DNA from: Stichopus chloronotus
Taxonomy: Eukaryota > Echinodermata > Holothuroidea > Aspidochirotida > Stichopodidae
Assembly (NCBI GenBank): GCA_021234535.1
Contig: CM037830.1
Span: forward strand, 14,067,116-14,131,115
Direction of reading: 5' to 3'
DNA: 64,000 nt
Shown here: piece after piece, positions 10,281 to 55,699 of the stretch
Position numbering within the stretch: the stretch's first letter is position 1
How the letters are laid out: each line of letters opens with the position of its first letter
Program-made: the position numbers and the translations under genes
The notes under the pieces: model-generated
Database searches by the model: none
The model's input: only the letters and a program-made list of their open reading frames with translations
What the model was told of the DNA's origin: nothing

Positions 10281-10289
10281 TTAATTGGT

Positions 10290-10640: not shown

Positions 10641-10680
10641 CACAATTTGGACAGGTCCGGACGCACACACACGCATAATA

Positions 10681-14972: not shown

Positions 14973-14977
14973 TGTAT

Positions 14978-20444: not shown

Positions 20445-20501
20445 ATTGCTGGTGACTGTGATGCACTTCACTTCAAAATCGGCAGAGCCAGCCGTCTTCA
20501 G
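20445..20501 (+). pseudogene. Copy A exon 9, open but diverged
   Basis: 57 nt encoding IAGDCDALHFKIGRASRLQ. Gene B has TPHFSIG where this copy has ALHFKIG. TPH corresponds to the conserved IPHP box of Ycf45 proteins, so the change hits a conserved site. Splice sites are intact. Confidence 0.75.
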
Positions 20502-21150: not shown

Positions 21151-21642
21151 GTAAACAGTCCAGACCAACAACACCGAGTGATCACAGAAAGTGCCAAAAA
21201 TCACAATCCCGATGTTGTCACCATTGACCTGATAGAACTGCCAAGTGATGTTTCCGCAATCTCTCACATCTGTAAACAAGGCATCAAGGTCATCGCAGGA
21301 GTGAGCAGAGACTCTGTCTCAAGTCTCCTTCATGATGAAAACCTGTGACAGATGTTCAAGGTTGGGGACAGTAACTTTCTGGATGACATGAGCTCCTTGG
21401 ACTCCGCTGGTGCCTTAACTAAATCAAAACTCAGGCCTGTGTTTGAAGCTTTGGTGGAAATGAAGGAGACGGATAGCTGGCACATACATGACTTGATGTA
21501 TACTCTATCCACTGTTAGCAATGGCCAAGCATATAGGGTACAGGAGAGGACCCGCATTGACCTCAATCGAAGGCAGCCAGGATGGGAACAAGAGATATTG
21601 CTGAGGGAAAAGGTTATTAACCCACACGATGCATTGCATTAA
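21151..21642 (+). pseudogene. Copy A exon 10 with in-frame stop
   Basis: Same 492-nt exon as in B, acceptor cacacag. TGA at 21346-21348 replaces TCA (Ser in B), ending the frame after 65 of 163 codons, just past the Walker B strand (here VVTIDLIE). Beyond the stop the frame stays open to the same terminal codon at 21640-21642. That suggests a young lesion. Confidence 0.85.
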
Positions 21643-27988: not shown

Positions 27989-28736
27989 ATGGCAAACTCG
28001 ACTGCAGTTCCCACCAATGAACAACTACAATCCATTCGCGAAATTTTGATCACGAAGGAAAGACCACTGTCATGGGAGTTCTTTGGGCAGGAGCTGGAGA
28101 AGTGTAATTCCTCTTTTACATGTCAGTCAGTTCAAGAAGCTTTGTGTCAAATGGCAATCCCCGGTGTACTTTCCTCCAGGGATTTCATCACACTTGACAC
28201 TCCAAGAAATGTTGGATTACTAAAGTTACAGCTGGCAGTGGCTGTTAATGAGAAAATAAATGCAGGAAGATTTAGCAAAGCCAACCACTACTTTCACATA
28301 ATCGCATCCGATGTAGAAAAAGATGAACTTGGTCACAATGAGGATACTTTAGCCAAGTCATTTTTGGAGTTTGATGATGCTTTTCACGTGATGACATCTT
28401 TGTCTGCAAGTGTGGGCAGTCACAAAAGAGTGTCTCTGAAACCAGAGTCTGCTCTTCTCCACAAATCATTTTTTGCATTTGAAAAGGACAAGAAGACCTC
28501 AGCAGTTCATAAAGTAAAATATTTTTTAAACCTTTGCCATGGACTCACTGATACATGGTCAGCTTTCGAATTTTCTCGCTGCTTCTTAGCTAAGGAAGAG
28601 AAAGTTTTCTTTGCAAGAAACACAATTGCTGAATTTGTAAGTGCATTGAAATCCTTCAAAGTCTCACTTTATATTAGTGACAATGCAGTGGCCCTTTCAT
28701 CATCACTGCTTCAAAGAAAGGAAACACTGACTCCAG
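27989..28736 (+). CDS. Gene B exon 1, module R1
   Basis: Codes residues 1-249. The chosen start, MANSTAV, lies eight codons inside a longer frame opening at 27965. It is preferred because copy C shares it while the upstream residues differ, and the context AAAATGG is favourable. Segment i spans ~11-69 (LSWEFF at 27-32, ending RDFITL). Segment ii, ~70-155, includes TLAKSFLEFDDAFHV. Segment iii, ~165-240, runs from KVKYFLNLCHG to SLYISDNAVAL. Donor CCAG|gtatgc, phase 1. There is no signal peptide or membrane segment. The exact fold assignment as winged helix/LOTUS-like is inferred from spacing and wing patterns only. Confidence 0.85.
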
Positions 28737-31700
28737 GTATGCAAATAATATTCCTTTTTTTTTGCAGTGTTACAGTGCAGTATGATAACATGTAAATTAA
28801 ACTATTAGATTGTGTTGATTCCACAAACAGTTCAATCATGCCAAAATTTGGAATGCATTAAATGTGCTCACTTAATCATGCTGCACATGTGAAATCTTGA
28901 GTTTGAAGGTCATTTAGATCACAAAAGATCAAAACTAACAAATCCCTAGAAGTACGGTATAACTGCAAGGGATCTCATATGTACACATGTCAGCTACATT
29001 GTAAATATTATTGAGTAGATGAGCCATATCATTTTTGTGGAGGTCAATCACCGTTTGCGATTGCAAAACGTCAAAACCTTTGAAGGATCTCATACAGTAC
29101 TTGGCCTATGGATTAGCTTCTATAGGCCTTGAGGGCCATTTGCATTACAGTACTAACCAACCCCACAAATGTTGAGGAAACCTGTGGCTTTTATGTCATA
29201 ACTTTACGTCAGGTGACCTGCAACTCAACAATTTATCATCAGATTTGGTATTTTTGGTTTAGATGATGTTAAATTGTAGTACTGTAACCTAAGTAATTAT
29301 GGCGTTGTGTGTGAATATGTGTGTTTGCGACACCTACCTTGTAAACAGGGTATCTCAAGAAGGGAACCTTGGACAGACCTTGTATTTAGTACATAGGTTC
29401 ATCACATCATGTACAAGAACTCTGTTGTTTTTGGTGGAGGTCTAAGATCATTTGAGATCAACAGGGGTCAAAATGTGAAAAACTTGTAAACACAATATCT
29501 CAAGAAGGGAATACTATTAAACAGAGGTCACATTTAGTTTGTCAGTGTAATGCATTAAGTACAAGATCTCTATTGATTGGGGGAGGTCAAAGATCATTTG
29601 AGGTCAACAAGGGTCAAATTGTGAAAAGCTTGTAAGCATGGTACACTATCTCAAGAGAGGAAGCTTGGACAGACCTCATATTTAGTGTGTAAGAGTATCT
29701 CCAGGAATAACATTGTTTCTGGTGAATGTCAAAGGTCATCTGAAGTCACCAGAGGTCACATTATGAAATTCTTGCAAACATATCTTAAGAATGGAAGCTT
29801 TGGCCGATCTCATATTTAGTATTTAGGTGTATCACGTTTGTGTGTTTTGGTTTTTTACAAGATCAGCTCAGAAGGGAGAATCATAGATTACCCTTGGACA
29901 TAATATAATTCCAGGCCAGGAATGAAACTTCATCCTCATTAACTAACCTTCATTGTTTCAAATGCCATCAGAAACCCTTCAATGGCTTTCTAGTTTTCTG
30001 ATTTGACCCTTTGACATATGTACAGTGTGCATCACAGTTGCAAGATCATGGCTGTATGGGGTACATCATCATGTATGTTATACAAGGTAAATGCTGTACA
30101 GTATCTTCATTTAGAACAATTCAAGCTACATTTTCCTGGCAATATTTATGACAAATACTAATTCTATCCAATTAACATGCAGAAAATGTGTTTCGTGTCT
30201 GACGCTACATAGTATTAGTTCCTACTGCTTGTACCACACATTTTCAAGTTGAACTACTGTACTGCATCATTGATGCACTTCATATGGTAATCTCATTTCA
30301 TGCAGTTCATTTTTTTTTTCATTTCCAGGTGATGATGGACAGAGAGAGCTGTTGAGAATCTTTGATGAAGAGGACATTGTCCTCTTCAAAGACATCTTGC
30401 AAAATGGACCTCTCTCTTGGAATTGTTTTTTATCAGTCTTAGAATCAAGAAAACCAGGCACGTACAGCATCGCCCTGAGAGAGATGTTATGCAACTCATC
30501 TCCAAATGGACTAATGCCTTCCCCTGATTTCATTTCTCTCTGTGACATCAGATCGACTGCTTTAGTCAAGCTACATTTCTTAGTCACCATCAACAACAAA
30601 TTAGGCAATGGTCAACTGGGTAAAATAAGCTACCATTTCAATGTCATAGCTGTTGAAAGGGAGAAGGATCAGATTGGAAGGAATTCCAAAATGATTTCGA
30701 AATCTCTTTTGAAGTATGATGACATATTTCACCTTCCGTCAGATGGAGGCGACAGGTGTAATGTGAAATGTGGACCCCTGGCCATCCCTTTTGATTCATT
30801 CTTCCAGATGGAAGGAAACAGACAAGAATCTTTTCGTCACAAGCTGAAGTATTTCCTTAATCTGTGTGGTGGGACTTGTACTGTATTCTCTGCCTTTGAG
30901 TTTTCAAGGAATCTCCTGCGAAGTGATGAAAAGCAGCTGTTCAAGTGCAATCAGCAGTCTTTCGTTAGTTTGGTCTCATCGTTGGATGACTCCTTCAAAG
31001 TAATGTCAGACAAGATTCAGTTATGCAAATCACATTTATGGTTCACACCATCAGGAGCAGCCTCCTTTACCTCTAGTGATGACAAACATCAAGCATCAGG
31101 TGAGAGAGATTTGTTGAAGAGTTTTTTCTCATCTCATTATTGTTTATCATTTGTTCACATCCTAGTTCAAAGCCTATTTTGTGGATTCATGTACTGTATG
31201 TGAATGAATGAGGGTTTGTACACTCTGAACATTGTACTGCAGTGACATGGCTTGCCTAGGCTAGGCCTATATGCAATTCAAGCTGTATGCTACTTCTGGT
31301 ATGTGGGTATTGTTAAATGTGACCCATGCATACCATTCCCCCCGACAACTGACATGCAGGCTGCAATTTTCGCATCCTGAGTAAGTTTTGATTTGAACCA
31401 CAATATATTTGTACTTATTAAAAAGTGACTCATTTTGCTTCAAATTGTGGCCTTTTTTTCCTATGAACTTTTGATATGATCAGCATCAATGTGCAAACAT
31501 TTTGCATTGATTTGCCTTTTTCAAAAATTTTAAAAGGGAGGGTGACACCACCTCCCCTTAGATCCCTCCCCCAGGATGGCAGTACAATGAGTGAGGTGTC
31601 CCAGTTTTAGGAAATCAAAAGTTGGTAGGTATGTGTACTGTGATATTTCAATGGTTGCAGAATAGCACAATGTTCATCATTCACAGGGGCTTAAAATATC

Positions 31701-34700
31701 ACTCTTTTTCTCAAGGCTTTGTTGTTCTTGTGGTTCGATGTTCCCTAGAAGTCACTCTTGGTGAATTCTGAATACCAGAAACTGGGAACATTGAACCTCA
31801 GGAACATTGAATCTTAGAAACATTGAGCCTCTGGAATATCAAATCCTGGAAGCATTGAAGCTCAGGAACATGGAACCTTGGGAATACTGAATCTCAGGAA
31901 CATCAAACCCTGTGAACATTAAACCTTGGGAACATTGGCATAGCCCCATTCACAAGATTTGAACTAAATGCACAATACAGTAAATACTTGTTTTCTCGTG
32001 TTTCAATAGGACAATGCTCTTGCTCATAACTGATTGTACTGGTGGGTCTGTTGGTAAGAAAGTTTAGTTTTGTGTTTGTTTTGTTTATTAATTGTTCTAG
32101 GTGGAGGAGATGGAAAGCCAACAGCCACTGCAGTGACAGAAGTAAATGAACACATTCCAAAGTCCTTAACGGTTAAGTTTGTCACAGATACTTTAAAACT
32201 TCATTGTTATCCGATGAGTTGGAAAGAATTCATGAAGAAATTCATGCGTCAGGACACTTCAGATGTAGTGAGCACAGTTGAAACATTTTTGACACATTAT
32301 TACGACAGGAAAGGCAAGAAGTTACTCTGCCTGTCTAAAGATTTTGTTGCACTGGATGCGCCATATCACCGGAGCAGACTCAAACTTGCACTGATTTTGG
32401 AGAATCGCAGTCACTGCAACAAGCCAAACGAGATAAGTATGAAGGAGCTGAAGGAACAGTTTGAAGAAATTGCATCACGTGAAGAGATCATTGCAACGGG
32501 AGGTAACTATGACAGTTTCTGCGAATTTCTCGGAAAATTTCCAATGATCTTCAGTGTTCAGAGTGGCTATGTCAGACAGGGATATCGATGTTTAAGGTTT
32601 CCATCCTTCTTTGTGAAAGAAAAGGAAGGAGCCTTACCCTCTGTGATTCACAAACTGAAATACTTTGTGAACATCTGTGGCAGTGACTCCGACGTCAGGT
32701 TTACTTGCAAGTTTCTGCAGAGACACCTTTCCCTCAAGAAAGAACTCCAACTTGTGGATTCTGATGAGAAAGTTCTTTGCCTGGCCCAGGAGGCTCAGAG
32801 TGGAAAAATTAAATCTCACAGCACAGGAACCACTGCTGGAGATGTAAAACGTGAAAATGACATTGGTAAAGTTCACATTACCTGTGACTCATTGCATCAT
32901 ATTTGTTTGTTACATGTTTGTTTCCCTGACAATTGTCAGTTGTTTACACAGTGGTTTGCCTTCTACAAATATGCCATGATTTTGCCTAGTTGGCTTCTGT
33001 TGCTCCACTCATCAAATGAAAGAGTCAGGACGTACAGAGTTAGACATCATACTGGAAGTTTTATATCAGACATAGGGCGTTACTTTTATTGGAATATAAG
33101 AATAAATGCAGAAACAGATTATATAATATCTGTTTTCATGCCTAGGTGCTTGCTGGTAAATGTGCTTGCTGGTAAATGTGATAAGATATAAATAGTGTTT
33201 GCCATTGAGTCAGATAGGCAAGCATACTAAAACAAACAAACAAACATTGGCATCGATTTGTGACTGAAATGAGGTGGGGGGGGTGTAGGGACATCATGTG
33301 TAAAATTGTTTTCTCCCTTGGCTTAGTCGGTGCAGGACGATCTAAGCAGAGCTCTACCATTGGTTGGTGAGGGGCATACAATTTTTTATTCCTTCCCGAA
33401 GGCAGAAGGAATCTATGCGATGGTGATGTCGTGCGTATGGCCGTGTGTCTGTGACACCTTGCTTGGAAACATGATATCGCAAGAAGTGTAACCATGACTG
33501 GTCTCATACTTGGGTGTGTGGGTTGGTCATACTCAGTAGATGATCCCTATTGTTTTTGGTGGTGGTCAAAGGTCATTTGAGGTCACCAGAGGTCAAAATG
33601 CAAAAACCTTGTAAACACGATATCTCAAGAATGGTAACTGTGACTGATGTCATACTTAGTGTATAGGTAGGTCATATTAAGTAAATGATCCCTATCGTTT
33701 TTGGTTGAGGTCCAATTTTATTTGAGGTCAACAGAGATCAAACTGTGAAAACCTTGTAAACACGATATCTCCAGAAGAGTAACTGTGACTGATGTCATAC
33801 TTAGTATGTGGGTTGGTCACACTGAGTAGATGGTCCCTATTGTTTTTGGTTGAGGTCAAAGGTCATTTGAGGTCACCAGAGGTCAAAATGCAAAAACCTT
33901 GTAAACATGGTATCTCAAGAACGGTAACTGTGACTAATGTCATACGTAGTGTATGGGTTGGTCATATTAAGTAGATGGTCCCTATTGCTTTTGGTCCAAG
34001 TCAGAGGTCATTTGAGTTCACCAGAGATGAAACTGTGGAAACCTTGTATACACGATATCTCAAGAACGGTAACTGTGACTGATTTTATACTTGGTGTGTG
34101 GGTTGGTCATATTAAGCAGATGATCTCCATTGTTTTTTTATCAAGGTCAAATGTCATTTGAGGTCATCAGAGGTCAAACTGTAAAAACCTTGTAAACACA
34201 GTATCCCAGAAGGGTAACTGTGACTGATGTAATACTTAATGTGTTGGTTGGTCATATTGAGTAGATGATCCCCATTGTTTTTGGTTGAGGTCAAAGGTCA
34301 TTTGGGGTCACCAGATGTTAAACTGTAAAAACCTTGTAAACACAATATCTCCAGAAGGGTAACTGTGACTGATGCCATACTTCATGTTTAGGTTGTTCAT
34401 ATGGAGTAGATGATTTCTATTGTTTTTGGTCGAGGTCAGAGGTCACTTGAGGTCACCAGAGATCAAACTGTAAACACAATATCTCCAGGAATCTAACCTT
34501 GACTGATGTCATTCTTGATGTGTGGATTGAATATACTGAGTAGAAGAATCCTTTTGTTTTTGGTGGAGGTCAAAGGTCATTTGAGGTCACCCGCAGTCAA
34601 ACTGAAACCTTGCAAACACATCTCCAGAATGGTGATGATAACTGATGTCATACTTGATATGTGGGTTGGCCATACAGAGTAGGTGATCCCTATAGCTTTT

Positions 34701-37700
34701 GGTGAAAGTCAAATGTCTTTTGAGGACACCTAAAATAGGTCATTTGGGGTTAATAGGCTCATTAATGTGGTGTTTCAAGTGCAATGATTGTAGTTGATCT
34801 CATACTTGTCATGTGGGTAATTCATGTTTGATATATTATAACCATGTTGCAAGGAATCACAAAGCCTTTTTACTTTCTGTTTGGTGTTGTGAACCCTCCA
34901 GATGGTCGGAAATGGAAACTTCGTGGGTGATTAAAGGGAAATAAGGCGTTTAGAATACACCCACATGGCATTCAAAGAAAATAGCTTTAATAGTTTTTAC
35001 ACCATTCACTCTCACCAATAAACATCTACAGAACCTTCATCTCCACAAAATCTTATGCATGTGATGAGTAACGGAAGATGCATCATTTGAATTTTGAAAA
35101 GTTTGGGTGAACAAATTATTGCATAGTAACAAATAATTGAATTTCTACCTGTGAGAAACTTATTTCTTGAAAAGAAGGCTACTGTCCTTCCTTATTTTGA
35201 ATAATCTATCATTCTTTGTCGACAAACATTGGTTTAAAAAATATGGTTATTTTCTGTAAAACAAACTTCTTATTTCCCTTTAAGCTGCATGTACCCAGCC
35301 TCTAAATAGGATGTCATATCTGTGATTTGCAAAAATGAGGGAAAAACCAGTCTATGAAAAATAGACAGAATCATTCTATTAGAAAAATCAGTTTATTGAA
35401 AATAAACATGTCAGTTTGGTTGAGATGATGCAAGAATCCTAGTTATATATATACTATGCATCTGCTTTAATTTACTTCTGATGCACTGAGCAAATATTTT
35501 GGGCATAACATACCATCCTCTTCTGTTTTGCTGGCCCTGACATAAGCAGGCTGAACAAAGGGTTGAAGTGGGTAAAGCATAAATGACTCCACCAGTGTCG
35601 TGTATGATTTCTCTACATAGACTCTCCATGAAAGCAGATTGTGTCGCTGGTTAGTACGTAGCATACTTAGAAAAGTTTCAATGAAAATACCTCTCAAATT
35701 GCAGGAAGTAGTGCTTCCCAGTCCCTCTCACCTTGCTCATTTCAGTTAAATTTCCAGTTGATTTTGGTTTCGATGATAATCATAACCTTTGTAGTCATGT
35801 ATACTAGTGTAACACGATATCTCAAGAAGGGAAACGTGGACAGATCTCATATTTGGTATATAGGTGTAGCACATTGAGTAAAAGAACGGTATTGTTTTGG
35901 TGGTGGAAATTTCCACTGATGTGATATGTTTTATGTATTTATTGTAGTACTTTAGTAAGCCATGTTGAGTGAAAAAGCCTCTTATATTTGCTGAAAGCTT
36001 CTGGGAACAACTAGGATTAACTTGTGAAAGCCATGTTCATATGGAACATCTCAAGACAAAAAGGTTCTTCGAAAAGGCATTTCTTGTTTAGTATGCAGGT
36101 GTGTATGTTGAATGCACAATCCCTGTCAGTTGTCAACAGATGTCATTGTGTGTATTGTGATTGTTACATCTTAATTGGGGACATGAGACATAACTGATCC
36201 AATATTAGATAGACCAACCTTGTGATATATCCTCATGTTTGTCATATTGAGAAAAAAACGATCATAATTGCATCATCAAAATCGCAATGTATTTGTGCAT
36301 TCTGGTTCATGAATATTGGCAAGGAACCATACAATCATGTGACTTTGTTTTTTTTTCTTTTAATTGTCACTTTCAGCACTTTACAATGCTTAAGTTTTGC
36401 AATTCATTTTTTTCTGCAGGTAATAATCAAGAGCCCAAACCAAAGAAAATGTTAAGTGTCTTTGATGAGAGGGACATCGCTCTATTCAAAGACATCTTAC
36501 AAGAGGGTCCTCTGTCCTGGAAATTCTTCTTATCACAGTTAGAATCACGAAGACCCAATACATACAGCGTAGCTCTCAGGGAAATGTTCAGTCAGTCACA
36601 GCCAGATGGACTTATAAATTCCCCTGATTTCATTTCTCTGAATGATGTCAGATCTACTGGTTTAGCCAAATTACACTTCATTGTGTCTGTCAACAGCAAA
36701 TCAGGAGATGTGTCATTAAATAAGGTCAGTCACCACTTTAGTGTGTTCGGTTCTGATGAGGAGAGGGAGGAATTTGGAAGAAACTCTGATGGGATTTTGC
36801 AATCTCTTTTGAAGTACAAGGATGTATTCCTTCTACCACTAGATGGAGGAAATCAATGTAGTGTAAAATGTGGACCCTTGGCCATCCCTTTTGATTCCTT
36901 TTTTCAGTTGCAGGGTAAAAGTGAAGAGTCCTTCAATCATAAACTGAAATATTTTGTCAACCTTTGTGGCGGGACATGTACTAAGTCGTCTGCCTTTGAG
37001 TTTTCCAGGAATCTTCTCAGCAAGGATGAAAAGCAGCTCTTCATGTGCAAGAAGGAGTCTTTCTTTGAATTGGTTTCATCACAGAAGTCTTTCAGGCTTA
37101 TGGCAGACAGGATTCAGCTCTGTAAATCGCATTTGTGGTCCACACCATTGGAAGCAGCTACTTTATTACCAGTGGATCCCAAAATTCCCAGCTCAGGTAG
37201 GACAGGTGTCTTTGGCACTTCAACAATCATGATGGTGTTCATTGTCATTGTGGATTAATTGTAGCGTGATATCAGGTTCCGCCTTAATGACAAGTATTAG
37301 AAGTGCATCATCTGATGCAGATAGGGTTTAGTCAAAATCTTTCTCTTAAAATATGGCAATTGGTCATCGTAGCTCCATTAAACAGAATACGAGTAAATTT
37401 GCTGGATGACTGAAAATGTACTACCCTGCAATAAAGCATGTTAATTGACTCTATGCTGTTATCTTGATCTGTATACTTCACTGTGTACTGTAAGCTTTCA
37501 GAGACAGTAACTCATCACCCCAAGCTATATTTTTGGCTTCTGGATAGCAGAAAAATTCTCAACTGGTTCTACTGTGCTCTTTGATTGACAGCAAGTACAA
37601 AAGATGCTGAGTAGCTGGTATTACACATCGTACACAGGGGTCCATTGTTTTGATTATATACTGTATGAGGGGGAATGTTAGGCAGACTAAGGGACTGACT

Positions 37701-40700
37701 AGAGGTTAGTGGTTGGGAGAATTGAAACTGTCTGGGGTGATAAGTCTTTGTCTTTCAAAGACATTTCTGAAAGGGTCATCTTGAGTTGTTTCACGAAATT
37801 CATGAAATTGCTCCAATCGGCCAAGTTTACGTGCAAATGGCAAAATGGTCAAACTAATGGGATCCCTACGTGTGACATGCAAATGAACATCAACTTTGAA
37901 AGACTGATTAACTTTAAAATTTTGTTTTTTAAAAGTTCATGACCGAGCACTCTTTACTTTAGTATCAGTTCATATGCACACAGCAAGCCATGTACAAGCC
38001 ATGGTACAAAAATTCAACTTTTGGACAATGTTCATTGAATCTGAATTGCTTGACTAAAATGCTAATTGACATGTGGTTACACAGTAACGCTCAAAATTCT
38101 TACAAATTTATCGACATCAACTCAAATGTTCCTCTTTAAATCAAGCAACATTGCTTACTTGCAGAGCATGATGTCACTTTGTGATTATGATTTTAAAAAA
38201 ATCAGGAAACCTCCCAGTTTTCACACCCAAATCATGCGATCACTGTAGCTGATCAATAGTTACTAGAAACAAAGACTTGATGAGTAACGACTGTTGAAAG
38301 AAATGCCCTCAAAATTTTGACACAATCTGAAGGGGCATGCAGGAAGTGGGGGATTGGGGACAAAATTTGTAGAGCAATTTACTGTGTAAAATCTGCTTGT
38401 GTCCCTGCTGGTGACTTAATTGTCTTGCTCTCTCCTATTGTTATCTTTTGAATTTACGGAGACCCAGCACAATAGCAATGCTATTGACTACACAGTTTTA
38501 TGTTGTTTTTTTTTTTTGCGGAAAATTGTTGTCTATATCTTGTAACCTTGTGACTTTCACTGTGTGTGTGTAAAAATAGGATCAGAATCTTAAGAACCAC
38601 CAAATTATTTAACACTTCTTTTCTGCTCATCTAAGGTTTAATTTGTTTTTCTCATGAGATTATAGCAGTGTCTGACTAGTGTGTTGATAAAGTTTGAAGA
38701 ACTGTGGGAGCTTCTGTAATGTAAAAGTAGTTTGCCAATGCTTCCAGCAATTTACAGCATGCTGTAATTTGGACAATACAAATGACCTAGTAAGTTTAAA
38801 GAGAAAAAAAGAACTCTGAGTGATGACACAACATGGAAAAAAAATCCAGTTTACATCTCTTTCTAGTTGGTGCATTGCATCTATCATTACAGAGTGGTGC
38901 ATTCTTTTTCCCAAAATTTTTCTGTCAGATATCAACTGGATAGATACTGTAAGTCTGAGCAAGTTTGTAGTAAAACCCTTAAACCAGCACTTCAATTCTG
39001 TTAACCTGCCATGGATGATATACAAACTGATGGCTCTTTTGCTTCATTAGCAAACTGTTGTTATGAAATACAGTAAGAACTGTTTTAGGAAGAAGCTAGA
39101 AAAGCACAGTATAATGTCAGTATAAGAGCATGTAATTGGTGACACTGCATCAATTCTTACTGTAAGTAGCTCAGCCCTTTTTCACATTATTCAGTAGCTT
39201 CCAAAGGTGTAATGCCTTTTGCCATTATTCATTTGCCATGCTGCTTCTTTTTGACAGGTGAAAATAAATTATACTTTTACTTATTATGTGGTACCTGGTA
39301 CTTAGATTACTCTGCATGTATAGTGATGTACAATTTGATTAAAGCTTCCTCTCTCGTCTTGTTCCTGTGCTCCCTCCTCAAGATGACTGGTTTTCAGAGG
39401 AACTTGGTGACCCTGCTGGCATCTCAGTGGTGCTTGAAAGCTCCTGTGATCAAGAGGCGTACTGTCTTCGGAAAGTGGACAGCTCAAGCATCTGCCAAGT
39501 GCCACTGGAGGTAAAGTTTCTATTATACAATTTTCCTCAGTACAGTGGTGAAAAAATTGAAATACTCCAACCTCTAAACTGTAAATGATGTACAAATTGG
39601 GATGGCTCTCCTTGTGTCAGATGACCTAAAGCTGTTTTATATGTCTTTTAACCACCAAAACAAATGAACTTCAGTTCTATATTGCCAGCTATTATTGGTG
39701 CATCGCTGAAATTACTCAAGAATACTCTGTGGTGGGAAGATCTTAATTGTGGGTGTACCTGAACAAGAAACACATGATGTCAAAACCTCAAATTAGGTTC
39801 GTAGGATTTCCCTCAGAGAATGTAGACACAGTGATGGCGAACATATTCCTTGACCCTTGCATGGTTAATATCACTCCCTCACTGTGTAATTTATGGGACA
39901 GTGAGGTGTTGGATGAAGATGAAGGAAACAGCAAGTTATGAAAAAGGAATAAAACTAAGTGTAACATTCAATTTGCCACTGTGTCAGTGGACAAATGATT
40001 AGGAAATTTTCATGCCATGAAATGGTCCCATGCATAAATGAAAATTTCTAAATACCTGATATATGTGCCTTTGATCCGGTTTTTAAACTGCAGACAGGAA
40101 ATGAGAACAATTGGTCAAAGGACTCGAGATATAAACATGACATGCATTGCTGCACAACTTCTGTGGCAAACTGTATTGGAGTATGACTCAATATTTTAGA
40201 TGTAAACTTCAGTACTGTTTAGAAATATAGTCATAATTACTGTCCTGTTTTTTTACCAACATGAGGGGCTTCGAAGGTAACATCTGATTTTTCTTATGAG
40301 TGAGGCAAATCCCTGATAGAGAGGACTTGCAATGCAGGTAATAAAAGACACTTCAGAAGGAGCAGTATCAAAAACAGATTTGAAAGTACACTTACGACAA
40401 AAATGAATGTGACATGTTCCTCACCTATACAGTTTTGATATTATTTAATCTTTACTATCCGTAGTCCTTGTCCAGATGTATCCTCAATTTACTGCATTCT
40501 ATTACCAAATCCAGCTCTGAGATGTCTTTTGGCATTTTTTGTCTTCAAAGTTACAACTTCCCCCCTCAATTGCAAATCTGATGTGATCAATTAAAGTTAT
40601 AATGTTAAATTCTCATTACCTCTTTGCTGATCAGTTTTGGAGATTCCAGCCTTTATAGAAGTTTTTATCACAGTTCTTCAATGAATTTTAATGAGAAAAG

Positions 40701-43700
40701 CTGACACAATGGAGAAAAGTTTTGTTCTTGGTTGCACGCACGGCACAAACAAGTCCCCCGTAAAATCACGGACAACCCATTTCTTTTATATCGTAGTGCA
40801 TTCATAGATCAGCTGCTGTTCAGCATGCAAATGTGTTGCCTACCAGCCTACACAGGTCTCATATTAAGCAGCAGGGTAGATTTGATTTGCATATATCTTC
40901 AGTGGATGGAACTCGCAGATTTTAAGTAACTACAAAATGTACTGAATATTTATATTAAAGTGTGCAAAGTTAGTGCAGCTAGGAATTTTTATCAAGTTAA
41001 GAAATTGTGTCTTGATGACATTCACAGTTTCTGTTTTACAATCAGATGTCTTGTACAACCTTTACATTGGTCACTCATTGATTCATATTCTGTTTATCTG
41101 GCAAACTTTACGAAGGTAAACATGGTAAAGACTTACAGAACAACAGGCAGCTAGTATACAAGAATTGGAATTAGTCTTAATCCCTCAGAATTATCACAGT
41201 TTATTCTTATTAGGCTGTAAGTGTGAGGGATACTGAAAAGCATTGCAAAATTCATCCTGTAAAAAATTACCCTGTCCTTTCTTCAGGAGGCAGAAAGCTA
41301 CAAGAGCAATCTATCTAGTCTTACCAATGAGCTGATACATCAGTATTCTCAAAGCAACACGGAGAACATCATTCAACTGTTGACTTTGCTTGGAGGCGAC
41401 ATATTCACAACTCTGAGCAGCAAGCTGAAGGACCAGTCAGAGAGGACTGTTGAGGACCTCTCAGAAATCACATTACACGTCGGCAGACTTGCTAGTGCCA
41501 GGTAAGATAGGTAATGCAGTGTGATTGACAAGCAGTTAAATGTATGGCTCATCGATACCAAGAGCATTTTTAGAAATGGAAATGTCTGATTTGTAAACCA
41601 GAAGCAGGTTGTTTTGCATATCTCCTATTCTGTGACTTTTGTTTTTGATAATAAAGTAACCTATACAGATATGTTGGCATGTGTGTGTGTTTGTTATGGT
41701 TGCATGCTTGTAGAAAGGACATTTGGCTCCAATTCTTGTTTTGCATTATGGTTGTTACACATTGAGTACAAGAAGCTTAGTGTTTTTGGTAAAGGTCAAA
41801 GGTAATTAGAGGTCAAAAGTGGTCAAATTACATAAAACAAGAAGGAAAGCATAAATAGATCATTTTTTGTAGGTGCACCACAATGAGTGCAAGAAGCCTG
41901 TGGTTTGTGGTAGACAGCAGTCATTTGAGGTTGGCAGGGGTCACACTACAGAAGTTAACATATGCAATATCTTTTAAAAGGGATGCTTGTACTGAAGTCA
42001 TACATATTTACCATGGTGTACTACAATTACAACTTAATATCTTGTTGATGGAGGTTTGTGGTCAGCACAGGGTCAAACCACAAAAAGACCTTATTAGAAT
42101 AAAGTCTCAAGAAGCAAAAGTAAGACTGGACAATCAAGAGCATGTGCATCCATACATCCCTCTGCATATTCTCTTAACCCCAACCCCCCCTTGTGGTACA
42201 ACCGCGTAACTAGCCTACAAAAGCACAACAGAAGTCAGTTTGTTTTATGACTTGGTGCAATAACAATGTAACAATGTAATAAAGACAGTTGGTATCAGGG
42301 ATGATACATTTTTAGTGTTTATATTGGCATCCAAAAATGCAAACCTAGCTCAGTGGTTGTCTTCATATTATGAAACACCACCATCAGATAATGCCATATG
42401 AAGAACATTTAAAAACGGACATTATGAATCTCTGAAAGAACTGGTTGAAACACTCAAGTTATACAGTATGGAAGCAGATTTCTTAAACTTGTTAAAAGTC
42501 TGTACATAATTCTCAAGAGACTGCAGTTCTTTCCTCACAAAGAACTTTCATTTTATAGTTCACTTTCCTGTCAGATGAAGTTCTCATTTATGAAAGGAAG
42601 GAAAGAAAGAACTGAAAGTACTAATCACCCTCAGATTTCATGGGTAGATGGTGAGAGGATGCCTCAACAATGAAACATTGATAGCTATGGTGCAATTTGT
42701 AAGTCTAATGCTCCTAGTAGCAATGCTTTACTCAAGATATACCAACTCCCAAGTGAAAGAAGTATGATAACTCTTGTTGTCACTTCACAGATTTCATCAG
42801 AAGACCAATGGTGAACAACCAATGGAGGTGGATGCATCCAGTCAGATGACCACCTGCGAGGACTTGGAAGAAATAGAGATGAAAGATGCTCTCACAGGAT
42901 TCGATGATTACAATCGTTGTGGAGTGGAGGGATGTCTCCATAGCATCAGGTGAGCTGAATTGCAATTTTTGCATTGGGTGGAATTTAACTTTTACTGTGT
43001 ATCATTTCAGTTTGACATTTGGTCTTGTCACAAATCATCAGTAAATTTGTGCTTGCATTTCTTGTTGGCTTGATATTTCGTCACTTTTAAGGACACTTTT
43101 ACTTGAAAATTTCATACAGTTCAACCATTTGTAAGTATTATGTTCCAATTTTATCGACAATATCATTGTCTTTCATAGCTCAGGTGTTTTCAACTGGCAA
43201 TGTTGTAGAGCTCAGTGCAGTCATGGACTGCCAAAGAAATTGCAAAATTCTAACCTTTTACTCAATACATCCAACAGTGAAGTGAGCATCACTGTAATAT
43301 TCCCTTCAAATCGTTTCGTCTTTGAAGGAGAATAACAAACAGAAAGAAGAAACTGATTGGTCTAACGGTAAGAGTGGCCCTGCCACTGCTGGGTTGTGCT
43401 GACATGATGTACGACATCGCTCTGAGTGACAAGTCAACATTAATCTTGGGTCGCCGCGGGGTGGGGAAGACCACCCTGCTCCGTGAACTGGCCAGATGCC
43501 TTAGCGACACCGTGGGGAATAAGGTGGTGGTGATTGACACTTGCAATGAGGTGATGATGATCAGAAAGATTTTACTGGCTTATACAACCTCAACTGCTGA
43601 GCTTCTTCATATCTGATCATGTGCACTTGTTGTTGATTGCTTTAAATTGTCTATCTCTTACTTAGTTGTTGATATGACAATGGCTTCTGTGCAAAGCAGG

Positions 43701-46700
43701 CACAGCACTGGCATGGTGCGTACGTCTGATGCTGACTATGAATAAAATAACATGCTCATGTGTTCACTTGCAATTTTAATGTCAATTCACATTGGATTGT
43801 TAAAATTTTACTTTGTATTAATTAAAGTAATGAATCTGATTGTTTTACACAATAGTCAGATAATATTGCAGTAAAATTTGTTTGAAATTTGGATTGCATC
43901 CCATAAAGATCTTTGTGCTTTTCCATCCTAGATTGCTGGAGACTGTGATACACCTCACTTCTCAATCGGCAGAGCCAGCCGTCTTCAGGTTAGTTTAGGA
44001 GAATCATCAAAGTCATTAGACAATGTTTGTGATGTTATTGGTACTGAAAGAGGTGAATTTCCTAGTCTAATATCTCAGTACTATATTGAGATGTTGTAAA
44101 ACCACTCAGCTTTCATTCTAATAGAAGAGAATTGTTATCTTCTATCCATTGGTAACAGGTTTGCACCATACCATTTTGTGAATGAGTGAGGTACTCAACA
44201 AATCCAAGATGAATCAATTTTGACCCATATACCGGCCGTGCATGCTAGGACAATTGGGGCAGAATAACTTGATGGCAAAGGTGCAGTCACAAACATGGGC
44301 ATTTATTTGTATAGGCTACAGTGTTCATGTGAAGGAATTGAATCTGCAAGGGAAATCACCCTTCAGAAAATTTTTTTAGATATTTGGGGGCAAGAAGACT
44401 TTCACTTTGTGAGAGCTTGCAAGGGGGCAAAACGAATCGGCCACAGAACATTGCAGTTTTTATGTAAACTAGACTACATCTTGATGTGGAGTTAACAAGC
44501 ACAGAAGTCTGGTCAAAAGTCAGAGGAAAGATAGTGTGAACAACTGCAAAAAATACCATATATAACTGGTAGCCTAACATGATGATTAGCCTAACCACCT
44601 CTGCAAGAATGTTTCATCGTCACAGTAAACAGTAGACTATTTTGTAAATTTGTGGACTTCAGACAATTTATAGAAACATTTAAATATTTTATAGTTTGTT
44701 TATTTATCCCAGTGATTTAAAGATGTGAATACATTTGATGTTTTGGTTGACACTGCCTGTAGAAAAATGGCTTCGTTAGTAGGCCAGGCCAGTAACTTGT
44801 AAGGATTACAGTACCTTGCGACATAAGTGATGTCGTATGGTTTTTTGTTTCCATGGCAAGTCACGAAGTAATCGCTCATGGGGTATACTTTGTTGGTTTG
44901 ATGCGAGCTTCACAGGTATCTAACTGAGAGCTATTTATCTGGGCCATCTTGGGAATCTCTTGAAATTTTGGCGGTAACTTGGCAACTTGACCCATTTACA
45001 TTCGAGACAGGTGACAAAGTAACTTGTAACTTGACAAAGTATCTTTCTTGGCAATATCCCAAAAGCTGCCATTCGTGGATACCACTAACAGTGTTGACTA
45101 CAGCTAGACTGTTGGAGGTGTATGTTGTATACAGTTACAACTGCTTCTATTGAATGAAAAAATGTTGTTCAGTTGAAAGTTGTGCAGCTTGTACTTGTGC
45201 AATTTATTTAATATCTTTTCTATTAGTGGAGAAAAAACAGTGGTTCTAACAATGATTCTGGTCTTTGTGAGTGATCATGGTGAATGAAGAAACTAAATTT
45301 ACGCTCACGTGACTCTGAGATGAAATAGTAGAGATCGTTGTAATGTTTCATTCTGCTGTTATTAGAATGCACTGTTTGCATCAATATCTTATGAGGATTT
45401 TTTTTTGTTTTTGCTGTTTTCTGAGTAGGTGAAGGAGGCAAGCCATGTTCTCCTACAATTGTGTGTTTTTTTTTTAAATGGGGCACTATGATAGGTATCA
45501 TGATTATTACTGGTTTCAATGAAATCGTAAGCTTTGTAATCAAGATGACAAGTCTGTGTTGTGTGACACCATGCTTGCAAACACTAAACAATATTTCAAT
45601 GTAGCTTGGTCAAATTAGTTGTGAAAATATTGTAAATGTGATATTTCATGAAGGGGAGTTTGGCCAGATTTCTGCTAGGATATGTAGGTGTACCTGATCA
45701 AGTACAAGTATAGCTGAGGTCAAGGGTCACTTGGGTTCAAATAGTGGAAACATTCTAAATATGATAACTTAAGAAGTGATGTTTGGACAGATCTAATATT
45801 TTGTATGCACTTGAACCTTTTGAGTACCTGTAGGCTAATGTTTGTGGCAGCTGAGGTCAAAGGTCATTTGGGGTTAACAGGGGTCAAGTAGTGAAATCCT
45901 TGTAAGCATATTATCATAAGGGAGGGAGGCTTGTCGTTATGTCATATTTGTAGTGGCAAGTGTAATATTGATTGTAAATGCATAGATTATATTTGGTGCC
46001 TCAGATCATTTGGTTTAAACAAGGGTTAACAATATGTGCCACATGTGGAATTCCATTGACAGGAACCTGAACATATCTCTCATTTGGTACATATGTAGGA
46101 CATGTGCATGTTTGAGTTACAATAGACCTATCTGTCAATCATATGCTATAAGGTAAACGATGTTGCTGTGTATATGTAGTTGTTATAAGAAATTACTGAA
46201 ACGTTTTACTGACCAGGCATGTTGGGCATCCTCACCAACAGTGTATGTAAGATTCAAAGGTGAATCATCAAAACCACAATGCCTTTGGGCTTTCTGGTCA
46301 AGTTACGGAAAGCTTATGCTGTTATCTGCAAACTTCAAATGAAAAAGATTCAATTGAATCACTAAATGAGTCAGGTACTTGCAAAGTTTGAACACACTGT
46401 TTTAGACTTGGGAAATAAAGGCCTGTCTTCAATAGTGTTTTTTTTAAATATCCTATGTAATGCCCAATAAATCTCTAATTTCCAGGGAGATATAAGATCA
46501 AAGTGTCCACCTTTCTTGGTACAATGTGAAAGAGAAAGCCTAATTTTGCATTATTCAACAAAAGTTTTACCATCACTTGTCAGTCCAGCTCCGTGAAATG
46601 TCATCCTTCAGATTTTCCAGTGGGCACGAATGTTAGAGAACAGGTCACCTGACTTAAGTACGTGCTTACTGATAAAATGATCTGAATCACTGATAGTGCA

Positions 46701-47781
46701 GCATACAACCAATATGTGGACAGGTCAGATGTTGAAAGCTAGGCTTTATATATGTCAGGCTTTACATATGTCAGTAGATAGCAGTGATACCAGTCTTGAC
46801 ACTGATAGGGGTTAACATGTATCAGTATAAAGTTAGTTAAGTGTTCTCAGATGTAAAATTCAAGATTATTGGATTGTTCTTTTCCAGTTGTGATATTAAC
46901 CAACCCATCCCAGAATTGTAAGTCATTTGCAAGTTAAGTTCTAGTCTATGGTTGTTATGTCTGAGTTAAAAGTTGCAAGTCACCACGTCACAATTCACTC
47001 AGGTCATACCTTTCTATATTGCTGTCAGGCCGAGAATGATGATCGAGGCAGTAATTTTGTATGTCACATGACCTTGAGCGAAGTAATCTTTCTCAATGAG
47101 AAATTGCATAGTAAAGCTTCCTTTGAATACTCCCTTTTACCTTTGTGGTGATCAGTGTGTATGGATAGACCATAAGAGTCTCTTTGAGTGAGACAGGCTA
47201 CTCATCACCAAAGGATAATCATATATGGCACTATCAGCAAATGTTATTTTCAGTTTTAACTTTACCTGGTTGTTCATTACCTCTCACAGGTAGACAGTCC
47301 AGACCAACAACACCGAGTGATCTCAGAAAGTGCCAAAAATCACAATCCCGATGTTGTCATCATTGACCTGATAGAACTGCCAAATGATATTTCTGCAATC
47401 TCTCGCATCTGTAAACAAGGCATCAAGGTCATCGCGGGAGTGAGCAGAGACTCTGTCTCAAGTCTCCTTCATGATGAAAACCTGTCACAGATGTTCAATC
47501 CTGGGAGCATTGACTTTCTGGATGACATGAGCTCCTTGGACTCCGCTGGTGCCTTAACTAAATCAAAACTCAGGCCTGTGTTTGAAGCTTTGGTGGAAAT
47601 GAAAGAGACGGATCGCTGGCACATACATGACTTGATGTATACGCTATCCAATGTCAGCAATGGCCAAGCATATAGGGTACAGGAGAGGACCCGCACAGGT
47701 CTCAATCGAAGGCAGGCAGGATGGGAACAAGATATATTACTGAGAGAGAAGGTTATCAACCCACATGATGCATTGCATTAA
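27989..47781 (+). CDS. Gene B: four wHTH modules fused to a SpoIIIAA/Ycf45-type ATPase
   Basis: Spliced coding region: 27989-28736, 30329-31099, 32101-32865, 36420-37196, 39383-39510, 41287-41501, 42791-42949, 43328-43550, 43932-43988, 47290-47781. All introns are GT-AG. The sum is 4335 nt, exactly 1444 codons plus stop. Residues 1-1020 are four ~255-aa modules, one per exon, each with three apparent winged-helix segments (wing pattern FxxLVxxxxSFxxMxDxIxL). Residues ~1064-1444 match the SpoIIIAA/Ycf45 NTPase family: N-terminal EITLHVGR region, FDDYNRCGVE, Walker A 1229-1237, DTCNEIAGD 1258-1266, Walker B ending D1307, and the PVFEALVEM C-terminal strand. Family knowledge: these ATPases are often joined to nucleic-acid-binding domains (R3H in plants). 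A nucleic-acid-handling NTPase is my inference. The Leu after the Walker B Asp leaves catalysis in doubt. The start ATG is conserved in copy C and has an A at -3 and G at +4. Confidence 0.85.
30329..31099 (+). CDS. Gene B exon 2, module R2
   Basis: Codes residues 250-506; a junction Gly (G|GT) opens the module. It shows FDEEDIVLFKDILQNGPLSW, then SPDFISL, SLLKYDDIFHL, CGPLAIPFDSFFQ, KLKYFLNLCGGTC and DKIQLCKSHLW. It is much closer to R4 than to R1 or R3, pointing to an internal exon duplication. Acceptor atttccag, donor CATCAG|gtgaga, phase 1 at both ends. Copy C carries a near-identical exon at 62222-62992 and copy A a broken one at 2322-3080. Confidence 0.87.
31775..31935. repeat. 16-bp minisatellite (GGAACATTGAACCTCA type), gene B intron 2
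   Basis: About ten imperfect units of ggaacattgaacctca form. It is the counterpart of 4500-4690 in copy A. It is intronic and non-coding. Confidence 0.8.
32101..32865 (+). CDS. Gene B exon 3, module R3 (divergent)
   Basis: Codes residues 507-761. It is the most diverged module. It has MSWKEFMKKF in place of LSWxFF, a longer first segment (DRKGKKLLCLSKDFVALD), and a clear wing motif YDSFCEFLGKFPMIFSV. It then has FPSFFVKEKEGALP, KLKYFVNICGSDSD and LSLKKELQLVDSDE. Acceptor tgttctag, donor GACATTG|gtaaag, phase 1 at both ends. The linker at its end is polar and low in complexity. The divergence from R2/R4 suggests a different binding role; this is inference. Confidence 0.85.
33387..34881. mobile_element. 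Satellite-bearing inserted element (144-bp units)
   Basis: About eight to nine head-to-tail units of ~144 bp. The phrase gtaaacacgatatctc starts at 33611, 33755, 33901, 34045, 34192, 34336, 34470 and 34612. The array has non-repeated ends: attccttcccgaaggcag at the left, and caaggaatcacaaagcc near the right. A second element with the same ends is at 53172-54367. Copy A lacks the insertion at the homologous site (about 6611), so the array moved as a unit. Transposition class is unknown. Confidence 0.8.
34935..35279. mobile_element. TTAA-site MITE, family 2 (345 bp)
   Basis: TIRs AGGGAAATAAG and CTTATTTCCCT, flanked by TTAA at 34931-34934 and 35280-35283. Copy A has the undisturbed site (gatTTAAactgc near 6654). 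It is AT-rich and non-coding. The insertion lies in intron 3 of gene B. Confidence 0.88.
36420..37196 (+). CDS. Gene B exon 4, module R4
   Basis: Codes residues 762-1020. It shows FDERDIALFKDILQEGPLSW, SPDFISLNDVRSTGL, SLLKYKDVFLLPLDGG, CGPLAIPFDSFFQLQGK, KLKYFVNLCGGTC, ESFFELVSSQKSFRLMADR and IQLCKSHLW. It is colinear with R2 throughout. Acceptor tttctgcag, donor AGCTCAG|gtagga, phase 1 at both ends. No counterpart is present in copy A. For copy C it would lie beyond the window. Confidence 0.87.
37197..39382. other. Gene B intron 4
   Basis: Non-coding. It contains an old copy of the family-1 TTAA MITE (37771-38135). The rest is AT-rich sequence with no feature recognised. Confidence 0.55.
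37771..38135 (-). mobile_element. Old, diverged family-1 TTAA MITE
   Basis: Alignable along its length with 59012-59379 (for example aagggtcatcttgagttgtt at the left and catcaactcaaatgttcctc at the right). It has many substitutions and a decayed left TTAA; the right TTAA is at 38136-38139. It shows the family was active over a long period. Confidence 0.65.
39383..39510 (+). CDS. Gene B exon 5, linker
   Basis: Codes residues 1021-1063 (starts DDWFSEELGDPAGISVVLES). It is an acidic linker between the modules and the ATPase, with no recognised domain. Preceding intron end ctcctcaag, donor CTGGAG|gtaaag, phase 0. It is supported mainly because it restores the frame from exon 4 to exon 6 and has clean splice sites. 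It has no second copy in the window for comparison. Confidence 0.7.
41287..41501 (+). CDS. Gene B exon 6, start of the Ycf45-like domain
   Basis: Codes residues 1064-1135. It contains NTENIIQLLTLLGGDIFTTL and then ERTVEDLSEITLHVGRLASAR. This fits the N-terminal region of SpoIIIAA/Ycf45 proteins (lpxxlrexLxxLxxxxLxEIxLRxGRP). Acceptor ctttcttcag, donor GCCAG|gtaaga, phase 2. It is missing in copy A. Confidence 0.78.
42791..42949 (+). CDS. Gene B exon 7
   Basis: Codes residues 1135-1188. A polar linker (QKTNGEQPMEVDASSQMTT) is followed by EDLEEIEMKDALTGFDDYN and CGVEGCLHSI. The latter matches the family motif in which a conserved N-R-x-G-x-E box precedes LHRI. It is 159 nt, acceptor cttcacag, donor CATCAG|gtgagc. 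Confidence 0.85.
43328..43550 (+). CDS. Gene B exon 8, Walker A
   Basis: Codes residues 1188-1262. RRITNRKKKLIGLTVRV parallels the 'IRNRkGkIiGLTxRVGR' stretch of Ycf45. It is followed by STLILGRRGVGKTTLLRELA, with Walker A residues G1229, G1234, K1235, T1236. VVVIDTCNE closes the exon, equivalent to 'VVIVDTSNE'. The family-typical Pro after the first Gly-Arg is Arg1231 here; copy A keeps Pro. Donor GAG|gtgatg, phase 0. Confidence 0.9.
43932..43988 (+). CDS. Gene B exon 9 (19 codons)
   Basis: Codes IAGDCDTPHFSIGRASRLQ (1263-1281), the counterpart of the family box IAGDGDIPHPAIGRARRMQ. It is too short to be found by length, but the motif, both splice sites and the copy A equivalent (20445-20501) fix it. 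Acceptor catcctag, donor CTTCAG|gttagt. Confidence 0.88.
43989..47289. other. Gene B intron 9
   Basis: 3.3 kb, versus 650 bp in copy A. About 44035-46690 is present only in B, so it is an insertion here or a deletion in A. Diverged AGGTCA-repeat remnants lie near 45650-46060. No exon was recognised. Confidence 0.55.
47290..47781 (+). CDS. Gene B exon 10, Walker B and C-terminus
   Basis: Codes residues 1282-1444 and TAA. VDSPDQQHRVISESAKNHNP precedes the Walker B strand DVVIIDLIELP. The family has 'VIVIDEIG', so the Glu following the Asp is Leu1308, with a Glu two residues on (1310). The family 'GTAHG' is AGVSR here. DENLSQMF, KLRPVFEALVEM and HIHDLMYTLSNV match the C-terminal part of Ycf45 proteins. 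The tail is basic (RTRTGLNRRQAGW). A weak ATTAAA signal follows at 47810-47815. Confidence 0.87.
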   Translation, partial: VDSPDQQHRVISESAKNHNPDVVIIDLIELPNDISAISRICKQGIKVIAGVSRDSVSSLLHDENLSQMFNPGSIDFLDDMSSLDSAGALTKSKLRPVFEALVEMKETDRWHIHDLMYTLSNVSNGQAYRVQERTRTGLNRRQAGWEQDILLREKVINPHDALH

Positions 47782-53171: not shown

Positions 53172-54367
53172 ATTCCTTTGCTGAAGGCAGAAGGGATCTG
53201 TGCAATGGTGATGTTGTGTGTGTATTTGTGTATCTGACACTTCTTGAAAACATGATATCACTAGAAGAGTAACCATGACTGATCTCATACTTGGGGTATG
53301 GCTTAGTCATACTGAGAAAATGATCCCTATTATATTTCTTCAAGGTCAAAGGTCATTTGAGGTCTCCAGAGGTCAAACTGTAAAAATCTTTTAAACACAA
53401 TATCTCCAGAAGGGTAGCTGTGACTGATGTCATACTTGGGGTGTTGGTTGGTCATACTGAGTAGATGGTCCCTGACATATTTGGTAGATGTCAAAGGTCA
53501 TTTGAGGTCACCAGAGGTCAAAATATGAAAACCTTGCAAACACAATATCTCAAGAACGGTAACTGTGAGTGATGTCATACGTGGTTTGTGGGTTTGTTAT
53601 ATTAAGTAGATGATCCCAATTGTTTTTGGTCAAGGTCAATGGTCATTTGAGGTCACCCGAGGTCAAACTATAAAACATTTGAAACTCAACATCTCCAGAA
53701 GGGCAACTGCGACTGATGTCATACTTGGTGTGTGGGTTGGTGGTATTAATTAGATGACCCCATTGCTTTTTGTGGAGGTCAAAGGTCATTTGACGTCACC
53801 ATGGGTGAAACTAAAAAAATTGTAAACACAATATCTCCAGATGGATACCTGTGACTGATGTCATACTTAGTGTGTGGATTGAGTATACTAAGCAGAATAC
53901 TCCCTTTGATTTTGTTGGAGGTCAAGGGTCATTTGAGGTCACCAGTGGTCAAAATGTAAAAACCTTGTAAACACAGTATCTCCACAAGGGTAACCATGAC
54001 TGATGTAATACTTGGTGTGTGTGGGTTGGTAATAATGAACAGAAGATCCATATAGTTGTTGGTTGAGGTCAAAGGTCATTTTAGGTCATCAGAGGTCAAA
54101 TTGTCAAAAATGTGTAAATACAATATCCCCAGAAGGGTTATGTTGACTAATGTCATACTTGATGTGTTTGTTGGCCATACTGGGTAGGTGATCCCTATTG
54201 TTTTTGGTGGAGGTCAAGTGTCATTTGAGGTCACCAAAAAGTCATGTTGAGTTAAAGGCTTGTTAATGTGGTGTTTCAAAAACAACACATACTTGTCATG
54301 TGGCTAATTCATGTTTGTTATAATATAACCATGTCGCAAGGAATCACAAAACCTTTTGGCTTTTTGG
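53172..54367. mobile_element. Second satellite-bearing element (144-bp units)
   Basis: Same ends and same ~144-bp unit as 33387-34881 (left: attcctttgctgaaggcag; right: caaggaatcacaaaacc), with about seven units. It lies downstream of gene B, directly before the tetranucleotide array. Confidence 0.78.
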
Positions 54368-54479
54368 TTAAAATTTTTGCTCATAAATTTTTTAAATGAG
54401 AAAAACGCTTTTTGCAGCTCATCCCAGTGTACTGGTGTGAGCTTTTGCAATCACATGGCGTCTCTCCATATGTTTGTTT

Positions 54480-55690: not shown

Positions 55691-55699
55691 ATGATTTGA

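Follow-up and report, generated by a model that had tools for sequence, protein, structure and literature searches.

The window analysed here is a stretch of 64,000 nucleotides (nt) from the sea cucumber Stichopus chloronotus (contig CM037830.1). It contains a gene, hereafter the focal gene, that joins Egalitarian-type modules to a P-loop domain of the SpoIIIAA/Ycf45 family and is the fourth copy in a tandem array. Egalitarian is an RNA-transport protein of flies, and the P-loop domain is known otherwise from bacteria and plastids. Our preferred interpretation, to which we assign a probability of about 0.55, is that the gene encodes an Egalitarian-like protein that binds RNA multivalently, with a P-loop domain that binds nucleotide and assembles without acting as a motor, and that this copy is a chimera that has lost its exonuclease homology domain (ExoHD).

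Gene model and homologues

The exons of the focal gene were rebuilt independently from the raw sequence of the window (Table 1). The rebuilt model has 10 exons with GT-AG introns and 1445 codons including the stop, with zero internal stops. It reproduces the span, the exon count and the codon total of a preliminary description, and all eight SpoIIIAA/Ycf45 boxes quoted there are present in the spliced translation. Exons 1–4 are each 748–777 bases long, and junctions 1/2, 2/3, 3/4 and 4/5 are all in phase 1. An in-frame ATG upstream, at 27965, has no counterpart in copy 5 of the array, which makes 27989 the better start. A second possible acceptor for exon 8 at 43331 (NAGNAG) would give 1444 codons; the length obtained with 43328 fits the aligned homologues.

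The nearest full-length proteins are from sea cucumbers: five entries from Apostichopus japonicus and one from Holothuria leucospilota (P0006). Over aligned residues, the spliced protein is 52–54% identical to four of the A. japonicus proteins and 44% identical to P0006. Homologues in public databases carry ‘uncharacterized’ or automatic names. One A. japonicus protein is named for R3H, and its identity with the acetylated R3H protein of PMC6770049 was ruled out, the table there naming R3H domain-containing protein 4. About 8000 candidates were scored in each of the three protein searches, and a wider or more diverged spread is possible.

Splice junctions were compared with five homologous proteins, omitting P0005, which is probably an isoform from the gene of P0001 (A. 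japonicus). Junctions 5/6 to 9/10 are gapless in 5/5. The linkers that hold junctions 1/2 to 4/5 are poorly conserved and mostly gapped, with 2–10 identities per 24 columns. In these homologues module M3 is followed by a further module type (MX) or other sequence and never by an M2-type module, so neither the focal order of M3 then M2-type nor the 4/5 link has a counterpart among them. The exon 4–5 junction is unsupported by the homologues compared, the open frame and splice phase being its whole basis, and it is the weakest point of the focal gene model. That junction is what speaks for a wrong joining of two adjacent genes, one with module exons 1–4 and one with P-loop exons 5–10. We hold this to be very improbable: the five A. 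japonicus entries and the H. leucospilota entry, all predicted proteins, have modules and P-loop domain in one chain, and every unbroken copy in the array has the same module/P-loop order on the same strand.

Two technical explanations were rejected. The homologous proteins, and the family scores given below, rule out a chance find or an artefact of how the exons were picked. Bacterial contamination is ruled out by the introns within the P-loop domain and by the position of the gene in an array on a 39.7-Mb contig.

P-loop domain

Against the Pfam family Spore_III_AA (PF19568), the focal protein scores 36 bits (gathering cut-off 27, E 5.5e-9). Three relatives also pass: P0008, the top relative, at 31 bits, P0006 at 48.6 and P0001 at 32.2. 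The proposal of a SpoIIIAA/Ycf45-type P-loop domain in an animal gene is thus borne out. SpoIIIAA proper was ruled out by the equivalog model TIGR02858, for which the cut-off is 281.3 bits and the focal protein scores 58.7, P0008 44.1 and three bacterial-type relatives 71.6–76.8. The original assignment therefore holds for the broad family; within it, similarity suggests that the Ycf45/R3H-type branch is a better fit than SpoIIIAA proper. We take Ycf45 to be the name for the branch of R3H-SpoIIIAA-type P-loop proteins.

A profile of the C-terminal region retrieved 203 proteins at E ≤ 0.001. Among the best 120 of these, 119 are non-animal, with 34–40% identity, most having both R3H (PF01424) and PF19568; the few named by organism are bacterial. 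In a scan of prokaryote genomes, cyanobacteria head the best 80 of 128 confirmed loci, which include many Chloroflexota and show 33–41% identity. P0008, of 465 residues, is 46% identical to a piece of P0006 over 81% of it. It has the same boxes as the sea cucumber proteins but reads DEWF where the others have DWFS; by its sequence it is probably from another animal. R3H was not among the best 25 of 28 Pfam families for the focal protein, P0006 or P0001, nor among the 25 of 25 for P0008. Another relative, P0007 (989 residues), is of SpoIIIAA type and has R3H; an intein/homing endonuclease appears in its source name.

Conserved residues were tallied in 11 animal rows and 198 others. Among the animal rows, seven are database proteins and four are copies from the window genome, with copy 3 omitted; P0001 and P0005 are apparently isoforms from a single gene. 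The others are 120 proteins and 78 of the 80 loci. The Walker A Lys is present in 11/11 animal rows and 197/198 others, and the Asp-box Glu in 11/11 and 198/198. The Walker-B Glu is found in only 2/11 animal rows, and the His-box His and the ERG Arg in 0/11, each against 198/198 elsewhere. All four window-genome copies tested lack the Walker-B Glu; the focal copy keeps Walker A and has Leu in place of this Glu and Ser in place of the His-box His. As the animal rows are related, these counts represent few independent losses.

In secretion-type ATPases, the His box and the Walker-B Glu serve hydrolysis. Of the features of an active secretion-type (PilT/VirB11-like) ATPase, the focal copy retains Walker A and lacks the Walker-B Glu and the His box. 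P0008 has weak matches to VirB11, TadA and ComGA, which indicate kinship to this group. Judged by these residues the animal P-loop domain looks degenerate, and the earlier suggestion that the protein is an NTPase is doubtful. A stronger form of that suggestion makes the domain an active RNA-stimulated ATPase or translocase ring, fed RNA by the modules. The retained Walker A Lys and Asp-box Glu agree with this, as do the Walker-B Glu of P0006 and P0008 and the prevalence, among the best non-animal relatives, of R3H, a nucleic-acid-binding domain. With the His-box His and ERG Arg missing from every animal row and the Walker-B Glu from 9/11, against full retention elsewhere, we regard such activity as quite improbable.

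A quick tree of 78/209 rows (9/11 animal, 69/198 others) places the animals in one group on a very long stem. It carries long-branch and composition warnings and has no rows known as plant or algal. In the tabulated part of PMC3087521, YCF45 is entered for two plastid-lacking protists and not for the choanoflagellate listed.

Egalitarian-type modules and the ExoHD

The whole focal protein matches Pfam WH_Egal with 33.1 bits (cut-off 27, E 8.1e-8). Module 3 cut out alone scores 26.3 bits, just below the cut-off. Its AlphaFold2 model (pLDDT 83.2, pTM 0.82) has Drosophila Egalitarian as its best PDB matches in Foldseek. The WH_Egal score and the fold together identify the Egalitarian-type ED, a winged helix-turn-helix (wHTH) domain, and the LOTUS/Egalitarian-like modules of the preliminary description stand. 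Its count of three wHTH per module stands in part: two wHTH units are clear in the model, the third unit is helical and wingless, and an ED3-like third wHTH was not clearly seen. A sequence-only search of PDB with the module profile gave one chance match.

The ExoHD was recognised via the A. japonicus proteins. By local tblastn it is recognisable in copies 1, 2 and 5, three of the four copies that are unbroken. When the genome was searched with the ExoHD of H. leucospilota, matches fell in the array only: there were three, all in copies 1 or 2, and E was <1e-10 for two. This search missed the copy 5 ExoHD that local tblastn found. Only three PDB entries matched the ExoHD profile at E ≤ 10, two of EXD1 and one of Egalitarian, all weakly (E 0.45–0.51). 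The ExoHD model has low confidence (pLDDT 41), and its first 26 Foldseek matches are all 3'–5' exonuclease, family-A polymerase or nuclear exosome entries; we take the exosome chains to be Rrp6. An active DEDD 3'–5' exonuclease has a DxE motif I and further catalytic acids. By eye, DxE is absent from its expected place in the P0006 ExoHD, and the exonuclease likeness is at the level of the fold, in the low-confidence model only. In Egalitarian orthologues the EDs are followed by an ExoHD and an XAD; no ExoHD was found in the focal copy, and searching with the A. japonicus and H. leucospilota proteins revealed no hidden ExoHD exons there. The TQT pattern, which is dynein-light-chain-like, is absent from the 7 proteins examined, with one looser VTQV in P0006. 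Neither Egalitarian nor EXD1 was found in the portions covered of a review of the RNase H-like superfamily (PMC3985635).

Tandem array and origin of the focal copy

A genome-wide search with the P-loop exons found five copies on one strand in a single array on contig CM037830.1 and none elsewhere in the 719-Mb genome. This number is a lower bound, giving at least five tandem copies. With the module exons, the array spans about 14.006 to 14.145 Mb. Copies 1, 2 and 5 do not share one set of modules and make up a natural series in which modules are gained and lost. In copy 3 the M2 and M3 exons have frame breaks, exon 10 contains an in-frame stop and no exon 1 was found, which marks this copy as a pseudogene.

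Synonymous divergence (Ks) splits the focal gene in two. Against copy 5, Ks is 0.21, 0.14 and 0.15 for exons 1, 2 and 3, 1.25 for exon 4 and 0.40 for exons 8–10. Against copy 2, it is 0.78 and 1.47 for exons 1 and 2, 0.18 for exon 4, 0.25 for exons 5–7 and 0.145 for exons 8–10, and exon 4 is 86% identical to the M2 of copy 2. By these values the focal copy looks like a chimera, with exons 1–3 copy 5-like and exons 4–10 copy 2-like, and an exchange of modules between copies is evident from the sequence.

Intron 4 also differs from copy 2 by two deletions. About 2.2 kb including most of MX is gone between focal positions 39148 and 39171, and about 3.0 kb including the ExoHD between 39279 and 39356. 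Between them a remnant of copy 2-like DNA survives, beside which the blastn matches to copy 2 stop at array position 52926 and restart at 58201 (Table 1). These breakpoints account for the missing ExoHD. Of exon 5 only the 3' part is left, and its acceptor at 39383, probably new in the focal copy, sits in sequence that is coding in copies 1, 2 and 5. The in-frame remnant of the part lost from the front of exon 5 has its counterpart in copies 1 and 2, where LVPV(I) or RVPV(L) stands ahead of PPQ. Four modules without an exonuclease domain therefore look like a derived state produced by recombination and deletions. The four modules described earlier are present in this copy and are atypical of the family.

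Table 1. Exons of the focal gene and other features of the array (window positions unless marked as contig positions).
Feature	Position	Strand	Content
Exon 1	27989–28736	+	Start codon and module M1 (Egalitarian-type); open; phase 0 in, 1 out; 89% identity to copy 5 (Ks 0.21, Ka/Ks 0.26), 59% to A. japonicus P0001
Exon 2	30329–31099	+	Module M2; phase 1-1; 93% identity to copy 5 (Ks 0.14, Ka/Ks 0.23)
Exon 3	32101–32865	+	Module M3; phase 1-1; Pfam WH_Egal match at residues 611–664
Exon 4	36420–37196	+	Module M4, a second M2-type module; nearest is M2 of copy 2
Remnant in intron 4	39171–39279	+	End of MX and next intron; blastn to copy 2 at array positions 55106–55221; flanks both deletions
In-frame remnant of exon 5	39343–39382	+	Lost first part of exon 5 (...LVPVLPPQ), directly after TAA
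Exon 5 as modelled	39383–39510	+	5'-truncated; DWFS motif; phase 1 in, 0 out
Exon 6	41287–41501	+	Ycf45-type region begins; EITLHVGR box
Exon 7	42791–42949	+	NRCGVEGCLH box
Exon 8	43328–43550	+	IGLTVRV; Walker A GRRGVGKTT; DTCNE box begins
Exon 9	43932–43988	+	IAGD...PHFSIGRASRLQ
Exon 10	47290–47781	+	Walker B IIDLIE (Leu, elsewhere Glu); His box lost; C-terminus and stop
Copies 1 and 2	contig 14006391–14062993		Copy 1: M1, M2, M3, MX, ExoHD, P-loop. Copy 2: M1, M2, MX, ExoHD, P-loop; M3 not found
Copy 3	2318–21639	+	Pseudogene
Copy 3 exon pieces	2318–3091, 4858–5583, 19257–19430, 19805–20032, 20445–20504, 21148–21639	+	
Copy 4	27989–47781	+	Focal gene
Copy 5	contig 14127370–14145272		M1, M2, M3, ExoHD, P-loop; MX not found
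Copy 5, 5' part in window	60255–62994	+	M1 60255–61004, M2 62221–62994; remainder beyond window

Several repeats lie among the copies. A 145-base tandem repeat, its unit closely similar in the two places, occupies 33462–34730, in intron 3 of the focal gene, and 53243–54236, downstream of it. Related blocks occur in other gene copies, and unequal crossing-over may have been aided by this repeat. Upstream of the M3 exon, copy 3 (4506–4692) and the focal gene (31785–31937) both have a tandem repeat of 16/32/64 bases (GGAACATTGAACCTCA-like). A pyrimidine-rich array of short TCTGTCTA-type units at 54481–55649 is the site of the strong strand skew of 54001–56000.

Selection

For the focal copy against the three intact ones, the ratio of nonsynonymous to synonymous divergence (Ka/Ks) is 0.11–0.45 where Ks is measurable. 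Against the pseudogene copy 3 it is 0.16–0.71. Since the ratio is below 1 even for a pseudogene, the pairwise values partly reflect older constraint, which weakens them as proof of recent constraint. Single-branch changes were counted by simple parsimony under a crude neutral model (about 3 to 1), skipping codons without an outgroup and those at which sister and outgroup differ. Along the focal branch, M1–M3 have 29 nonsynonymous and 29 synonymous changes (p 2.8e-5), and M4 has 14.5 nonsynonymous and 11.5 synonymous (p 0.013). The modules of the focal copy are under purifying selection.

These ratios also bear on an alternative in which the array serves defence or transposon control, EXD1/piRNA-like or by sensing dsRNA, evolves fast and has diversified by module exchange. 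EXD1 has a piRNA role and accounts for two of the ExoHD's three PDB matches, all of them weak, and an array with differing modules, one pseudogene and one chimera would suit such a locus. When the focal copy is compared with each intact copy, Ka/Ks is well below 1 for all blocks in which it is measurable, and we judge this explanation unlikely.

Proposed function

On the reading that we prefer, the modules, with the ExoHD where present, would grip structured RNA much as ED1, ED2, ExoHD and XAD of Egalitarian do. That Egalitarian grips RNA is reported in the part of PMC13186709 drawn on here. The P-loop domain would still bind nucleotide through its preserved boxes. With the His box gone and, in this genome, the Walker-B Glu as well, it might serve as a nucleotide-gated assembly platform and not as a motor; we propose the nucleotide-dependent assembly or gating role because the binding boxes are kept and the hydrolysis boxes lost. 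The outcome would be a multivalent RNA-binding assembly. The RNA handling suggested in the preliminary description is probable, by analogy with the Egalitarian modules.

Several observations weigh against this reading. The Foldseek E-values for Egalitarian range from 2.7e-3 to 3.2e-2, with TM-scores by query length of 0.23–0.27, and the VIA match is confined to residues 84–162 of the module 3 model. The full pocket of Egalitarian cannot form within the focal copy, which lacks an ExoHD. Because the Walker-B Glu is present in P0006 and P0008, alone among the animal rows, hydrolysis may still occur in other members of the family. Ring assembly of the P-loop domain we infer by analogy, from its secretion-ATPase kin and the weak P0008 matches. 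Finally, P-loop exons 8–10 have 12 nonsynonymous and 8 synonymous changes on the focal branch, not significantly below neutrality (p 0.12), and those of the pseudogene copy 3 are similar at 10 and 8.

The last point is also what would be seen if the family were functional and the focal copy decaying, recombination and deletions having broken the link so that at most a truncated module protein is made. The truncated exon 5, with a stop just upstream and an acceptor in formerly coding sequence, fits decay, as do the unmatched 4/5 junction and M3-to-M2-type order and the presence of one pseudogene, copy 3. Decay would not be expected to leave all ten exons open with the new junction in frame, nor the significant focal-branch constraint on M1–M3 and M4. 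We consider it somewhat unlikely, and favour a multivalent RNA-binding protein.

A broader evolutionary scenario is more speculative, and we offer it as an unlikely one. An animal lineage would have acquired a Ycf45-type P-loop domain of bacterial or plastid origin, abolished its catalysis and joined it to repeated RNA-gripping modules of Egalitarian type. The result would be a nucleotide-gated, multivalent RNA-assembly protein. It would diversify through tandem duplication and the exchange of modules, and would be a previously undescribed kind of RNA receptor or scaffold.

Literature searches, the broader of which were surveyed only in small part, found no description of a SpoIIIAA-type animal protein, in agreement with the preliminary description. 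A holothurian genome preprint (PMC13228809) gave no match to the terms searched in the text covered. Work on planarian egal-1 reports the N-terminal domain of Egalitarian in several protostome phyla and, in the passages concerned, ‘not clearly in deuterostomes’ (PMC12579938); an array of Egalitarian-type modules is now seen in an echinoderm. Here these modules are joined to a P-loop family for which no animal report was found, and the array displays module gain, loss and swapping between copies. An expressed fusion would link modules of RNA localisation or control to a nucleotide switch in a new and testable way.

Comparison with known systems

Egalitarian (Drosophila Egl, PDB 9rvy and others; planarian egal-1) shares the wHTH-type ED modules with the sea cucumber family, and in three paralogues of the focal gene the ExoHD likewise follows the modules. 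Egalitarian has one module set, whereas the sea cucumber proteins have several modules and an added P-loop domain, and the focal copy has lost the ExoHD. EXD1 (PDB 5fiq, 5fis) resembles the ExoHD of the paralogues below significance; the focal copy has no ExoHD to compare. SpoIIIAA of endospore formers shares PF19568 with the focal domain, which scores far under the SpoIIIAA equivalog cut-off. The likeness to bacterial P-loop proteins of R3H-SpoIIIAA/Ycf45 type (Acidobacteriota, Cyanobacteriota, Chloroflexota) runs box by box. The focal domain differs from them in having lost the His-box His and the ERG Arg and in following Egalitarian-type modules; R3H and PF25516 are not listed for the focal protein, P0001, P0006 or the partial P0008.

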